From assembly GCA_025359215.1 (NCBI GenBank), contig JANYHE010000015.1:1-51302 (forward strand): a stretch of 51,302 bases of DNA. The letters are read 5' to 3'. Source of the DNA: Hyphomicrobiales bacterium. GTDB taxonomy: Bacteria > Pseudomonadota > Alphaproteobacteria > Rhizobiales > Aestuariivirgaceae. Each line of letters starts with the position of its first letter. Positions within the stretch are counted from its first letter, which is position 1. The notes below the pieces were generated by a model. That model was not told the origin of the DNA, ran no database searches, and saw only the letters and a list, made by a program, of their open reading frames with translations. Shown here piece after piece: positions 7,854 to 24,000 of the stretch. The position numbers and the translations under genes are program-made.

Positions 7854-7988
7854 CCTTCTCCCCTTGAGGGAGAAGGTGGATTGCGCCTCTAACTTGGCGC
7901 AAGACAGATGAGGGGGTAGTGGGCCGAGTCCAATTGCCACCAACCCCTCATCCGCCCTTCGGGCACCTTCTCCCGCAAGGGGAGAAGG
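7854..7988. repeat. palindromic intergenic element, copy A (between DUF2163 and NlpC/P60 genes)
   Basis: The element has a hairpin at each end (CCTTCTCCCC-TTGA-GGGAGAAGG on the left, CCTTCTCCCGC..GGGGAGAAGG on the right) and an inner inverted pair GATGAGGGG...CCCCTCATC, so the whole unit can fold as a long imperfect cruciform. It fills most of the only large gap in this part of the operon. Similar organisation is seen at copies B, C, D and F. It resembles intergenic mosaic elements known from rhizobia, but I cannot assign it to a named family. Confidence 0.85.
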
Positions 7989-8002
7989 TTAGAATTTATG
8001 CA

Positions 8003-12134: not shown

Positions 12135-12259
12135 CCCTCCTCACGAAGTGGGGAGGGTGGATCGCGGAGCGAGACGGGTGGGGAGCGCAGTGTTAAATAT
12201 CTTGGCACACCGCCACCCCTTCCGCCCCTTTGGGGCACCTTCCCCCTTTCGGGGGAAGG
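12135..12259. repeat. palindromic intergenic element, copy C (between capsid and connector genes)
   Basis: The left hairpin is CCCTCCTCACGAAGTGGGGAGGG and the right hairpin is CCTTCCCCC-TTTC-GGGGGAAGG. Inner blocks are GACGGGTGGGG and CCACCCCTTCCGCCCC. It occupies nearly the whole gap downstream of the highly expressed capsid gene, so in RNA it could act as a 3' stabiliser or attenuator; that is inference. Copies D and E are its closest relatives. Confidence 0.88.
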
Positions 12260-12274
12260 AAAAGAAGGAAAGTT

Positions 12275-18694: not shown

Positions 18695-20241
18695 TCAAGA
18701 TTTTTATCCCGCGCGATATGCTCGCTATCGCTTTAGGTGCTGATGAAGTGGCCGAGGCTATTGTTTTGGAAGCTGCTGTCCAAAAGATCAGTGTACAGAT
18801 CATTCGCAACTCATCGCGGGGCATGGCCTGGCTTGAACCTTTGGTGGAAGTTGAAACGCCGAAGGGCCGTGTGGGTTATGGCGGTGTCAAGATGAAGGAT
18901 GTCAAAGGCCTGTTTGCCGCCAAGTTTTATGAAGGCGGGAAGCATGAGCTGGGCCAAGGTTTGGTTGAAGAAATTCCCTTTCTCAAGAATCAGGAACGCC
19001 TGACTTTTGCGCGGGCCGGCATCACCGATCCAGTTTCACTCACCGACTATATTGCCCATGGTGGATTTGAAGGCCTGAAGAAGGCTTTGACCCTGAGTGG
19101 CTCCGACATTGTCAAAGAAGTTCAGGAATCAGGGCTTCGCGGTCGTGGCGGCGCAGGCTTCCCCACCGGCCTCAAGTGGAAAACTGTGAATGAAGTTAAG
19201 GCCGATCAAAAATATGTCTGCTGCAATGCTGATGAAGGTGACTCAGGCACTTTTGCCGATCGTATGATTATGGAAGGCGATCCCTTCCTCTTGATTGAAG
19301 GCATGATTATTGCCGCTCTCGCAGGCGGAGCCACCAAAGGCTATATCTACTGCCGCTCGGAATATCCCTATGCCATCTCGACTCTGAAAGAGGCTATTGC
19401 CATTGCTACCAACGCCAAATGGCTTGGACAAAATATTCAGGGTACGGAGCATTGTTTCACACTTGAAGTGCGGCGCGGTGCGGGAGCTTATATTTGCGGG
19501 GAAGAAACCGCGATGCTGGAAAGCTTGGAGGGCAAGCGCGGCATGGTGCGGGCCAAGCCCCCTATTCCTGCTTTGGTTGGGTTGTTCGGCAAGCCCACCA
19601 TTATCAACAATGTGCTTTCCTTCTGTGCGGTTCCTTTCATTCTTGCCAGGGGCGCAAAAGCCTATGCCGATTATGGCATGGGCCGTTCGCGCGGCACCAT
19701 GCCCTTCCAACTTGGCGGCAACTTGGAACGCGGCGGCATTGTGGAAAAAGCCTTCGGCATCACTTTGCGTGAACTGGTCGAAGACTTTGGCGGCGGGCCT
19801 TATATGGGCAAACCGTTGCGCGCTGTGCAACTGGGTGGCCCCTTGGGTGCCTATGTCGGTGCAAACCAACTCGATCTCAAAATGGATTATGAAACTCTCA
19901 GCGCCAATGGCGCAATGCTCGGCCATGGCGGAATTGTAGTTTTTGATACGACAGTTGATATGGCCCAGCAAGCCCGCTTTGCCATGGAATTCTGTGCAAT
20001 TGAATCTTGTGGCAAATGCACGCCCTGTCGCATCGGCTCCACCCGCGGCGTTGAAGTGATCGACAAGATTGTGGCAGGTGAAAATCGTGATGCAAATTTA
20101 TTGCTACTCGAAGACCTGTGCCAGACCATGACCGATGGATCGCTCTGCGCCATGGGCGGCCTCACGCCGATGCCGGTGATGAGTGCGGTTAAACATTTCC
20201 CCGAAGATTTTGACAAACCAACGCGCCTCGCAGCGGAATAG
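18691..20241 (+). CDS. fdsB: NAD-dependent formate dehydrogenase beta subunit
   Basis: This 516-residue NuoF-like diaphorase subunit has about 90 N-terminal residues ahead of the NuoF core. The FMN/NADH motif GRGGAGFPTG is at 151-160 and CNADEGDSGTFADR follows in the NADH site. The C-terminal [4Fe-4S] cluster is bound by C440, C443, C446 and C486. It reduces NAD+ with electrons from formate. It is coupled to fdsG by ATGA and followed by fdsA after seven bases. All key residues are present. Confidence 0.94.
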   Translation: MIKIFIPRDMLAIALGADEVAEAIVLEAAVQKISVQIIRNSSRGMAWLEPLVEVETPKGRVGYGGVKMKDVKGLFAAKFYEGGKHELGQGLVEEIPFLKNQERLTFARAGITDPVSLTDYIAHGGFEGLKKALTLSGSDIVKEVQESGLRGRGGAGFPTGLKWKTVNEVKADQKYVCCNADEGDSGTFADRMIMEGDPFLLIEGMIIAALAGGATKGYIYCRSEYPYAISTLKEAIAIATNAKWLGQNIQGTEHCFTLEVRRGAGAYICGEETAMLESLEGKRGMVRAKPPIPALVGLFGKPTIINNVLSFCAVPFILARGAKAYADYGMGRSRGTMPFQLGGNLERGGIVEKAFGITLRELVEDFGGGPYMGKPLRAVQLGGPLGAYVGANQLDLKMDYETLSANGAMLGHGGIVVFDTTVDMAQQARFAMEFCAIESCGKCTPCRIGSTRGVEVIDKIVAGENRDANLLLLEDLCQTMTDGSLCAMGGLTPMPVMSAVKHFPEDFDKPTRLAAE

Positions 20242-20248
20242 GTACATC

Positions 20249-23110
20249 ATGCTCATTAAAGAAATCGATTTCGGCACGCCAAAATCTCAATCCGCAGCCA
20301 TGGTCACTTTAGAGATTGATGGCATCAGCGTCACAGTGCCGGAAGGCACGTCGATTATGCGGGCAGCGATGGACTCAGGAACCAAAATTCCTAAGCTCTG
20401 CGCCACCGACTCGCTCAATTCATTTGGCTCTTGCCGCTTGTGTCTTGTTGAAATTGAAGGCCGCAAGGGCACGCCAGCTTCTTGCACAACGCCGGTTTCA
20501 GCCGGCATGAAAGTGAAAACGGAAACGGACCGTCTGAACAAACTGCGCAAAGGGGTGATGGAACTTTATATTTCAGACCATCCACTCGATTGCCTCACTT
20601 GTGCAGCCAATGGCGATTGCGAATTGCAAGACATGGCGGGGGCTGTGGGCCTTCGCGATGTGCGTTATGGTTATGATGGCGAGAACCACACGCACGCCCG
20701 CGTGGGTGGCGAAGAGAATTTCCGCTTCAAAGAAAAAGATGAGAGCAACCCCTATTTCACGTTTGATCCCGCCAAGTGCATTGTGTGCTCGCGCTGTGTT
20801 CGGGCCTGCGAAGAAGTGCAAGGCACATTCGCTTTAACAATTGATGGCCGCGGATTTGCATCCCACGTATCTGCTGGCATGGACGAGGGCTTTATGAATT
20901 CGGAATGCGTGTCTTGCGGCGCATGCGTTCAAGCCTGCCCCACGGCAACGCTCACAGAAAAATCTGTGATTCAAAAAGGCCAAGCAGAGCATTCCGTTGT
21001 CACAACCTGTGCTTATTGCGGAGTTGGGTGTTCCTTCAAAGCTGAAATGAAAGGCGATGATGTCGTGCGCATGGTGCCTTATAAGGATGGCGGCGCCAAT
21101 GAAGGCCATTCTTGTGTGAAGGGCCGTTTTGCTTGGGGCTATGCCACACACAAAGATCGCATTACATCACCAATGATCCGTACACGGATTACTGATGAAT
21201 GGAAAGAAGTGAGTTGGGAAGAAGCCATTGCCCATGCGGCAACGGGATTCAAATCCATTCAGAAAAAATATGGTCGCGGTTCAATTGGTGGCATCACATC
21301 ATCACGCTGCACCAATGAAGAAGTTTTTGTTGTTCAGAAAATGATCCGCGCTGCATTCCAGAATAATAATGTGGACACCTGCGCCCGCGTTTGCCATTCG
21401 CCAACAGGATACGGACTGTCGAAGACTTTCGGCACGTCAGCGGGCACTCAAGATTTCAAATCTGTCGCCAAGGCTGATGTCATTTTGATTATCGGTGCCA
21501 ATCCAACGGATGGCCACCCCGTGTTTGCATCACGCATGAAGAAGAGATTGCGTGGAGGTGCGAAACTTATTGTGGCCGATCCACGCCGCACTGACTCGGT
21601 TCGTTCTCCACATGTTGAAGCCCAGTTTCATTTGCAATTGCGCCCCGGCACCAATGTGGCGATCATCAATGCACTGGCGCATGTGATTGTAACTGAAGGT
21701 CTGGAAGCCAAAGCATTCATTGCTGAGCGTTGCGACACCGCTGAATTTGCGCGCTGGACCAATTTCATCCGTGATCTGACGAATTCTCCAGAAACACTAG
21801 AGTCGATCACCGGCGTTCCTGCTGATGAGATTCGCGGGGCTGCTCGCTTGTTTGCCACGGGCGGAAATGGTGCCATTTATTATGGTTTGGGCGTTACTGA
21901 ACATAGCCAAGGCTCCACCATGGTGATGGGCATGGCCAACCTTGCCATGCTCACTGGAAATATTGGTCGCGATGGTGTGGGCGTTAATCCTTTGCGCGGC
22001 CAAAACAACGTGCAAGGGGCGTGTGACATGGGTTCGTTCCCGCATGAGCTTCCGGGCTATCGTCATATCTCAGATGACACTGTGCGTAACTTGTTCAATG
22101 ACGTGTGGCACACAGAGCTGGATAATGAGCCGGGCCTTCGCATTCCCAATATGTTGAGTGCTGCCGTTGAAGGCACGTTCCGTGGCATCTTCATTCAAGG
22201 CGAAGACATTGCGCAATCTGATCCGAACACCAAGCACGTGACAGCCGCTCTCGAAAGTATGGAAATGGTTGTGGTGCAGGATTTGTTCCTGAATGAAACC
22301 GCAGCTTTCGCACATGTGTTTTTGCCGGGCACGTCATTCTTGGAAAAAGATGGCACGTTTACCAATGCCGAACGCCGCATCAACCGTGTTCGTCAAGTGA
22401 AAGCGCCGATGCAAGGCAAGCATGAATGGCAGATCGTTTGTGACCTCGCACAGGCGATGGGTTATGACATGCGCTATAACAATGCCGCCGAAATTATGGA
22501 TGAGATTGCGTTGGTCACGCCTACTTTCAAAGGCGTTTCCTTTGCCAAGCTTGAAGAGAAGGGTTCCATTCAGTGGCCGTGCAATGACAAGGCCCCCGAA
22601 GGCACACCGATTATGCATATCGGTCAGTTCGTGCGCGGCAAGGGCCGGTTTATGATTACCGAATATGTGCCAACCCCTGAGCGCACTAACCGCGAATTCC
22701 CGCTGATCCTCACCACGGGCCGCATTCTCTCGCAATATAATGTGGGTGCACAAACGCGGCGCACTGAGAATTCCAATTGGCATCCTGAAGATGTTTTGGA
22801 GATTCATCCGCATGATGCTGAAGTGCGGGGCATTAAAGATGGGGCCATGGTTTCGCTCGCCAGTCGCATTGGCGGCACAACCCTTCGGGCCATGATCACG
22901 GAACGGATGCCGCAAGGTGTAATCTACACCACGTTCCATCATCCAGTGACGGGTGCCAATGTGATCACCACGGAATATTCAGATTGGGCCACCAATTGCC
23001 CAGAATATAAAGTAACGGCGGTGCAGGTGACTGTTTCCAATCAGCCCAGTGATTGGCAGAAGGATTGGGAAACCCGCGAGGAAGAAAATAAGCGGGTTGC
23101 CGCGGAGTGA
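20249..23110 (+). CDS. fdsA: NAD-dependent formate dehydrogenase alpha subunit (molybdopterin, cysteine type)
   Basis: This 953-residue catalytic subunit oxidises formate to CO2 at a Mo/W bis-MGD centre. In order it has a [2Fe-2S] ferredoxin domain (C51, C62, C65, C79), a NuoG-type cluster (H111, C115, C118, C124), two [4Fe-4S] ferredoxin motifs (C177/180/183/187 and C220/223/226/230), and the Mo-domain cluster (C254, C257, C261, C289). The active-site cysteine is C382 in CARVCHSPT, where selenocysteine sits in FdhF-type enzymes. The MGD-binding fold makes up the rest. The ATG at 20249 gives MLIKEIDFGTPK; a longer frame starts inside fdsB and is rejected. The stop overlaps the fdhD GTG. Confidence 0.95.
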   Translation: MLIKEIDFGTPKSQSAAMVTLEIDGISVTVPEGTSIMRAAMDSGTKIPKLCATDSLNSFGSCRLCLVEIEGRKGTPASCTTPVSAGMKVKTETDRLNKLRKGVMELYISDHPLDCLTCAANGDCELQDMAGAVGLRDVRYGYDGENHTHARVGGEENFRFKEKDESNPYFTFDPAKCIVCSRCVRACEEVQGTFALTIDGRGFASHVSAGMDEGFMNSECVSCGACVQACPTATLTEKSVIQKGQAEHSVVTTCAYCGVGCSFKAEMKGDDVVRMVPYKDGGANEGHSCVKGRFAWGYATHKDRITSPMIRTRITDEWKEVSWEEAIAHAATGFKSIQKKYGRGSIGGITSSRCTNEEVFVVQKMIRAAFQNNNVDTCARVCHSPTGYGLSKTFGTSAGTQDFKSVAKADVILIIGANPTDGHPVFASRMKKRLRGGAKLIVADPRRTDSVRSPHVEAQFHLQLRPGTNVAIINALAHVIVTEGLEAKAFIAERCDTAEFARWTNFIRDLTNSPETLESITGVPADEIRGAARLFATGGNGAIYYGLGVTEHSQGSTMVMGMANLAMLTGNIGRDGVGVNPLRGQNNVQGACDMGSFPHELPGYRHISDDTVRNLFNDVWHTELDNEPGLRIPNMLSAAVEGTFRGIFIQGEDIAQSDPNTKHVTAALESMEMVVVQDLFLNETAAFAHVFLPGTSFLEKDGTFTNAERRINRVRQVKAPMQGKHEWQIVCDLAQAMGYDMRYNNAAEIMDEIALVTPTFKGVSFAKLEEKGSIQWPCNDKAPEGTPIMHIGQFVRGKGRFMITEYVPTPERTNREFPLILTTGRILSQYNVGAQTRRTENSNWHPEDVLEIHPHDAEVRGIKDGAMVSLASRIGGTTLRAMITERMPQGVIYTTFHHPVTGANVITTEYSDWATNCPEYKVTAVQVTVSNQPSDWQKDWETREEENKRVAAE

Positions 23111-24000
23111 ATTTCGAAAAGAGCCCTCATCCGCCTGTCGGCACCTTCTCCCATGCGAAGATGCACGGGAGAAGGCGGTTAGATTTGCCTTCTCCCGTTC
23201 CTCTTGGGATGGGAGAAGGTGCCCAACGGGCGGATGAGGGCTCTTGCTCGGTTCCCACTATCGGTCGCATCGACGGCCTTCCAACCACATGGTATCTCCC
23301 CGAAGAGGTTCCTGTGGCCCTCCTCATCAATTCCACATCTTATGCCGTGATGATGGCAACTCCAGCTGACCTTGAAGATTTTGCGGTGGGCTTTGCCTTA
23401 TCTGAAGGCCTCGTTGCTCACGCATCTCACCTCAACAATGTTCTCGTTATGCCTTCGGGTGACGGTTTCTCGGTTGATCTTGCTATCGCCAGAACCCATT
23501 TAATCCGTGAACGGATGATTTCACGTTCGATTGAAGGCCGGGTGGGTTGTGGGCTTTGCGGCATTGAGGACATGGCTGATGCTATTCGCATGCCTGATGG
23601 AAAGTTACATGCACCACCGTTTAGTGCTGTTGCTGTTGCCAAAGCCTTCGATGCCCTGCCCGCACATCAACCAATGAACGAACTTAATCGCACAGTTCAT
23701 GCTGCCGCATTTTGCTCTGTGGACGGAGCAATTTTACTGGCGCGTGAGGATGTTGGGCGACATAACGCTTTGGATAAACTGATAGGTGCAATGGCCCGCC
23801 GTCAGATGAAGCCCGATGGCTTTGTTCTCATGTCATCGCGCTGCTCATTTGAACTGGTGCAGAAATGTGCCTCGGTTGGCATTGGCGCGCTGGCCACGAT
23901 TTCAGCGCCCACGGCCCTTGCCTTGAAACTGGCCAAACAAGCTGGCCTTCACCTTGCTTCGCTTTCCAAAGCTGGCGTTATGATTTTTGATGGAGTTTAA
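23107..24000 (+). CDS. fdhD: FdhD/FdsC sulfur carrier for formate dehydrogenase maturation, with in-frame palindromic insertion
   Basis: FdhD transfers sulfur from a cysteine desulfurase to the molybdenum cofactor of formate dehydrogenase and is required for activity. The sulfur-carrying C-x2-C is C148/C151 (GRVGCGLCGIED), and VGRHNALDKLIG and SSRCSFELVQK are also conserved. The likely start is GTG at 23107, overlapping the fdsA stop as GTGA. Codons 5-46 lie inside a palindromic element (23120-23244) that is fully open in this frame, so the protein has about 40 extra residues rich in R, P and G before the conserved core (near IGRIDGLPTTWYLPEE). Internal starts (ATG near 23161 or 23209) are possible. 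Core length is normal. Confidence 0.9.
   Translation: MNFEKSPHPPVGTFSHAKMHGRRRLDLPSPVPLGMGEGAQRADEGSCSVPTIGRIDGLPTTWYLPEEVPVALLINSTSYAVMMATPADLEDFAVGFALSEGLVAHASHLNNVLVMPSGDGFSVDLAIARTHLIRERMISRSIEGRVGCGLCGIEDMADAIRMPDGKLHAPPFSAVAVAKAFDALPAHQPMNELNRTVHAAAFCSVDGAILLAREDVGRHNALDKLIGAMARRQMKPDGFVLMSSRCSFELVQKCASVGIGALATISAPTALALKLAKQAGLHLASLSKAGVMIFDGV
23120..23244. repeat. palindromic element, copy F, inside the 5' coding part of fdhD
   Basis: The outer arms at 23120-23154 and 23209-23244 are inverted repeats of 35 and 36 bases differing only in the central few positions. Each contains CCCTCATCCGCC and CACCTTCTCCCAT or its complement. An inner perfect 12-bp pair ACGGGAGAAGGC (23165-23176) and GCCTTCTCCCGT (23187-23198) forms a second hairpin. 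The blocks CTCATCCGCC and CACCTTCTCCC are shared with copy A. It contains no stop in the fdhD frame and keeps that frame. Confidence 0.9.

Follow-up and report, generated by a model that had tools for sequence, protein, structure and literature searches.

A palindromic repeat at the fdsA/fdhD junction of an Aestuariivirga-type alphaproteobacterium is probably read as part of FdhD

Background

Can a palindromic repeat that falls between two genes end up as part of a protein? This question is raised by a locus on contig JANYHE010000015.1 of a Hyphomicrobiales bacterium (assembly GCA_025359215.1, positions 1 to 51,302 of the forward strand); this stretch of 51,302 nucleotides (nt), the whole of the DNA that was analysed, is called the window here. 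On its plus strand the gene for the alpha subunit of formate dehydrogenase, fdsA, runs from 20249 to 23110, and an fdhD gene of the fdsC type follows as an open reading frame (ORF) of 297 amino acids, 23107 to 24000. Its GTG (23107 to 23109) overlaps the fdsA stop codon (23108-23110) as GTGA. Between this GTG and the conserved core of FdhD lies a palindromic element of 127 nt, at 23119 to 23245 on the same strand, and the frame stays open through all of it, as the original prediction had claimed. We argue that a non-autonomous palindromic repeat was probably inserted at this junction and is probably read as an extension of FdhD.

Results

The element belongs to a repeat family that we call A, subfamily A1. 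An inverted-repeat search finds outer arms at 23119 to 23141 and 23223 to 23245 (23 nt, 91% complementary) and inner arms at 23140 to 23176 and 23187 to 23223 (37 nt, 89% complementary), all on the plus strand. The 5' inner arm holds a 13-bp sub-hairpin (23144-23175) and the 3' inner arm one of 14 bp (23188-23219). Taken together the arms make a single imperfect stem of about 58 bp; the palindrome was correctly recognised at the outset but its arms are longer than the 35-36 bases given then. By eye its ends read AAGAGCCC...GGGCTCTT. Eight nucleotides separate the fdsA stop codon from the element, and the hairpin begins 9 nt past the GTG instead of lying over the translation start as had been supposed. 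The leader from GTG 23107 to the conserved motif EEVP has a folding energy of -123.3 kcal/mol, and 60 dinucleotide shuffles of it average -66.6 (z -12.5), which rejects a chance hairpin. A known structured RNA is rejected as well: the four Rfam matches with E<=1 between 22900 and 23500 are three microRNA models and one snoRNA model, all far under their gathering scores (the best, mir-2131, has 38.6 bits against 92).

The clearest evidence for an insertion is an empty site. Among 37 genomes of the genus (labelled G000, the window's own, and so on) an fds-type FdhD locus is present in 33, G008 has a fragment only (E 7.6e-21) and three have none. The end of fdsA and the FdhD core are both held by 31 of the 33 loci, and G012 and G024 were dropped since one or the other is missing. 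G021 and G003, a sister pair that adjoins the window's genome in the tree (support 88/91), have just 59 nt from the fdsA stop to EEVP, with the overlapping GTG 20 codons ahead of EEVP. An alignment of fdhD 5' ends from related strains had been proposed as the way to find such a site, and here it does. The window has 194 nt over the same interval, a net gain of 135 nt or 45 codons. The element of 127 nt is itself not divisible by three, and it was right to call the insertion a multiple of three in effect; the element encodes about 42 residues, close to the 40 first estimated. From the fdsA stop onward the overlapping GTG is the sole in-frame start of G021 and G003; the two others are within fdsA, 43 and 55 nt further upstream. 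In 21 of the 31 species, this one included, the fdsA stop overlaps an ATG or GTG in the FdhD frame (ATGA or GTGA). Counted from the overlapping GTG the insertion lies in codon 5 of fdhD.

The next question is whether the element has to be read. Upstream of EEVP the window's fdhD has four in-frame ATG, GTG or TTG codons: GTG 23107, ATG 23161, TTG 23185 and ATG 23209, at -1, 53, 77 and 101 relative to the fdsA stop. The last of these (23209 to 23211, plus strand) is within the element, and between the element and EEVP there is no ATG, GTG or TTG at all. Since no standard start is left there, at least a part of the element has to be translated, barring a rare start codon. EEVP is present in 32 of 32 aligned rows and so is a W four residues upstream of it. 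The Pfam domain FdhD-NarQ (PF02634) covers residues 66-290 (E 1.6e-58), and the alignment to the solved structure of E. coli FdhD starts at residue 64. An AlphaFold2 model built on 34 aligned sequences places the first strand at residues 48-55, with a mean pLDDT (predicted local distance difference test) above 90 in blocks spanning residues 51-130 and below 50 for residues 1-45. The predicted fold therefore begins directly behind the element (23248 to 24000, plus strand), and the segment that follows the element looks like protein. A start downstream of 23244 had been named as what would refute translation of the element; the position of every standard start, the retained W and EEVP, and the onset of the fold at residue 48 do not bear it out. 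The other refuting condition, a leader shared by all homologues with no empty site among relatives, is contradicted by G021 and G003. With no standard start left between element and fold, the window's fdhD is, as far as its sequence can tell, a well supported N-terminal case of a translated palindrome. The simplest assumption is initiation at the old overlapping GTG, with an ATG within the element as the alternative.

The element is one of many. Its sequence occurs, whole or in part, at 31 places in the 3.0-Mb genome, a list that omits five further places with E 1.5 to 5.1. There are two subfamilies, A1 of 127 nt and A2 of about 115 nt. Matches at E<=1e-8 are found in 26 of the 37 genomes (the window's own included), and partial matches in 22 of 72,556 plasmid records are confined to Sinorhizobium, Rhizobium and Shinella. 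Among the loci compared, the closest copies to the fdhD element are one on G003 contig C59 (91%) and one on contig C120 of its own genome (88%), and no other fdhD leader exceeds 82% identity. The copy on contig C90 (L018 1535-1546) shares with the fdhD copy about 10 nt past the element end, by chance or as carried-along flank. A second part-copy of family A in the window, 7945-7997, lies outside predicted genes, with a predicted stop codon 6 nt away.

With genes predicted by a crude codon score trained on 20 window ORFs, 19 of the 31 places, the fdhD copy among them, overlap a predicted stop codon or lie at most 20 nt behind one, and three lie deep within genes. Open frames were surveyed at 22 of the 31 places, and five of these 22 are marked as coding. 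Among its 17 intergenic copies 41 of 102 frames are open (about 40%), so an in-frame insertion demands luck in length more than selection on the element, and selection on the element's own open frame can be set aside as needless. The copy in the EamA gene has none of its six frames open because a stop inside it ends that gene. We also rejected a resident Y1 transposase as the mover: RAYT (REP-associated tyrosine transposase, PF01797) was found in 0 of 1 genome, an assembly 99.2% complete, and in 6 of 14 control genomes, 5 of them above the cut-off.

Copies of the family also lie inside other genes of this genome. A family A element lies in frame in dnaE2, where it adds 42 residues (L006 1501-1623, G000:C95:46089-46211), and in a comparison covering five congeners the dnaE2 of G021 is the short form that lacks it. 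An A2 element lies in frame in cobN (L028 1412-1534, G000:C13:5812-5935); the loop that it occupies is also filled in G016 and G003, holds other inserts in G018, G032 and G001 and is empty in G021. Folding of this loop reaches z <= -3.1 in 6 of 29 readable cases (30 loci), one of which, G013, has a short loop and no insert. The long loops of G003, G018, G019 and G011 fold barely better than their own shuffles, as if the palindrome had eroded and the insert had been retained. In PDH-E2 an A2 element makes up the linker between the lipoyl and E3-binding domains (L026 1501-1620, G000:C85:25001-25120). Of 29 such linkers looked at across the genus 28 are readable, and 9 of the 28 have z <= -4.5; folding is strong (z <= -4.8) in eight species besides the window's. 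Family A copies also form the C-terminal ends of an EamA protein and a DUF559 protein. On contig G000:C138 (L020, L021) a small DUF559 gene is flanked by two copies, one of them its C-terminal end.

The fdsA/fdhD junction has been filled by more than family A. Elements are present there in 11 of the 31 species, this one included, and they belong to four families whose labels were assigned to the leaders by eye: A in G000, G005, G017, G027 and, as a composite, G020; B in G010 and G030; C in G016; and D in G011, G029 and G032. Leader folding at z <= -3.4 is seen in 12 of the 31 species, which are these 11 and G001. G010 carries B although its closest relative G005 carries A. Counting both strands, B has 15 match rows in G010 and C has 15 in G016, mostly half-units. 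The whole unit of D is matched only at the fdsA/fdhD junction in the four genomes searched (both strands again), and its half-units recur. In some species the element also changes where reading can begin. In G032 and G011 the frame does not open before +73, and the earliest starts, GTG +79 and ATG +82, come mid-element behind a G-rich stretch. G017 has GTG +91 and ATG +103 inside the element and TTG +139 at its very edge before EEVP. In all three the first usable start therefore lies in the element. A half-unit of C, the element type of G016, is found elsewhere in the window at 12214-12260.

The other junctions of the operon are mostly tight. Spacing between fdsG and fdsB is -1 to 5 nt in 26 of 27 values (G034 being unreadable), between fdsB and fdsA 7 to 27 nt in 25 of 28, and between fdhD and fdsD -11 to 20 nt in 30 of 31 species, while fdsA and fdhD are 20 to 238 nt apart in the 31 species. 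The fdsB-fdsA spacings of G016 and G020 (202 and 196 nt) contain palindromic hairpin elements behind the fdsB stop (L294, L295), and that of G004 is 85 nt with no obvious element. G025 has 899 nt between fdhD and fdsD (L301), an unexplained gap. Of 65 loci outside the genus 36 have a readable junction; just three of these reach z <= -3.4, each with a leader of 98-101 nt, and five other leaders of 275-352 nt show no excess folding. A hairpin hotspot in all relatives is thereby rejected.

One feature of the neighbouring gene should be recorded. The start of fdsA was taken as MLIKEIDF, 22 codons into the ORF 20183-23110.

Discussion

We propose the following course of events. A non-autonomous palindromic repeat would have landed 8 nt past the fdsA stop, and a place behind a stop codon appears to be the usual site for most copies of family A in the genome. 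Because fdhD starts at the GTG overlapping that stop, the insertion fell into its fifth codon. It was retained because the net length keeps the frame, about 40% of the family's frames are open and the N-terminal end of FdhD is not part of the fold. A ribosome finishing fdsA would most likely restart at the old GTG and then translate the element from end to end, adding about 42 disordered residues to FdhD. That this leader is expressed, that the repeat can move and that the insertion is neutral are inferences. A tolerated insertion in a tolerant place is the most likely explanation. If such repeats commonly land just past the fdsA stop and FdhD can do without its leader, several families at one junction are to be expected.

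Some observations weigh against this proposal and should be considered together. Two ATC codons between the element and EEVP are conceivable rare starts. By eye we see no good Shine-Dalgarno sequence at any candidate fdhD start, and if reading began at ATG 23161 or 23209 the 5' portion of the element would stay untranslated. Missing rows account for part of the low pLDDT of residues 1-45, as the remaining 33 rows of the AlphaFold2 alignment are blank before residue 47. No direct repeat that would mark a target-site duplication is seen at the element ends when they are compared by eye with the empty site, whose flanks have diverged. Some of the congener records are metagenome bins. Finally, the junction states are not all independent. 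With the open forks of the tree retained as polytomies, parsimony needs 8 changes at equal cost, against a mean of 10.7 (range 8 to 11) in 1000 shuffles of the labels, which indicates that the states are partly inherited. If losses are free, 5 gains are enough with an empty root and 4 with any root state. One old insertion inherited by all is still contradicted by the empty sister species and by the closer matches elsewhere, yet those few gains do suffice when losses cost nothing.

The alternative that survives best is that the element is kept as a useful RNA. The hairpin behind the fdsA stop would protect or process the fdsGBA message and lower translation of FdhD, a chaperone that may be needed in smaller amounts, and the peptide would be a by-product. 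Four families at one junction in 11 of 31 species is what this idea would lead one to look for. The fdsG-fdsB and fdhD-fdsD junctions have no comparable expansion (the G025 gap excepted), and the hairpins behind the fdsB stop in G016 and G020 also fit, as does the report of repetitive extragenic palindromes (REPs) beside 3' ends, for which an RNA role has been proposed (PMC3733652). Against it, 20 of the 31 species do without a recognised element, which marks it as dispensable. Family A also sits deep inside dnaE2, cobN and pdhC, where an RNA role makes little sense, and well-folded junctions are few outside the genus. We consider this unlikely as the main explanation. The repeated hits fit a tolerant landing site and a selected hairpin alike.

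A second alternative, a little less likely again, is that the element supplies the start, with fdhD translated from ATG 23161 or 23209 and the element partly read. In-frame ATGs are indeed present within it, and G017, G032 and G011 have their first usable start there. The window itself retains the old overlapping GTG in frame, and the predicted fold of the leader pairs TTG 23185 and ATG 23209 fully and ATG 23161 partly; in fairness the GTG too sits in a short 3-bp helix of that fold. The last alternative, an untranslated leader with a downstream start and a frame open by luck, could appeal to the roughly 40% of element frames open by chance and to the remark in a 2013 survey that many N-terminal REPs may be extragenic (PMC3733652), but it is very improbable given that no ATG, GTG or TTG follows the element before the conserved W..PEEVP and that the predicted fold begins at once behind it.

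The genus invites a broader and more tentative idea. Palindromic repeats of several unrelated families might be a standing source of new protein segments, with tolerant places such as the FdhD leader, the PDH-E2 linker and one CobN loop repeatedly filled, replaced and eroded, while the fdsA/fdhD hairpin might also be a selected device that sets the amount of FdhD after FdsA. We offer this whole picture with considerable doubt.

These loci matter in two ways. This Aestuariivirga-type genus offers apparently translated palindromic elements together with related species in which the site is filled or empty, and the natural series that they form can be used to study how cells live with such inserts, exploit them or get rid of them. 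And since one operon junction was hit by four families, convergence can be counted rather than argued.

Comparison with known systems

Family A may resemble the RIMEs (Rhizobium-specific intergenic mosaic elements). One of its plasmid matches covers 95% of the query at 70.9% identity; the gene table of these records carries no repeat annotation. Our literature searches found no prior report of a palindrome at fdsA/fdhD, which is weak evidence that there is none.

Bacterial miniature inverted-repeat transposable elements (MITEs) with open frames, ERIC, YPAL and Correia, are likewise small and palindromic and make in-frame fusions with host genes, going by the part of PMC2229807 that treats them. 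In our element, unlike those MITEs, no target-site duplication or TA ends are seen.

Intragenic REPs are GTAG/CGTC-tagged repeats. A 2013 survey of several species reports REPs downstream of stop codons and also within genes, DnaE2 among them, as our elements are (PMC3733652). The survey also describes different REPs at about the same recB site in two Xanthomonas species, and it notes N-terminal cases, many of them possibly untranslated. The family A element in the window differs from tagged REPs in having, by eye, no GTAG or CGTC at either end. The B element of G010, in contrast to A, begins CCGTCATCCC and has CGTC near its end.

The classic in-gene palindromic elements are the Rickettsia palindromic elements (RPEs), as the relevant portions of PMC2229807 and PMC10969869 present them; the former gives lengths of 105-146 bp. 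The original prediction was right to cite this precedent but went too far in calling such insertions rare elsewhere, with intragenic REPs published for several species, DnaE2 included (PMC3733652). As their sources describe them, RPEs too are found both intergenically and as in-frame inserts in conserved genes that are unrelated to one another, where the extra peptide is tolerated. Our element is a multi-copy palindrome in the range of about 100-150 bp (127 nt, 31 places), and it is inserted in frame in conserved genes that have empty-site homologues (FdhD, and DnaE2 and CobN against G021). The likeness is one of description. Unlike the RPEs, the elements here belong to an Aestuariivirga-type alphaproteobacterium, and four families occur at the stop/start junction of one gene. 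The window's element is thus of a kind already known from Rickettsia RPEs and intragenic REPs (PMC3733652). What is new is that a single stop/start junction has been used repeatedly by several families, and that in some species the first usable start lies inside the element.

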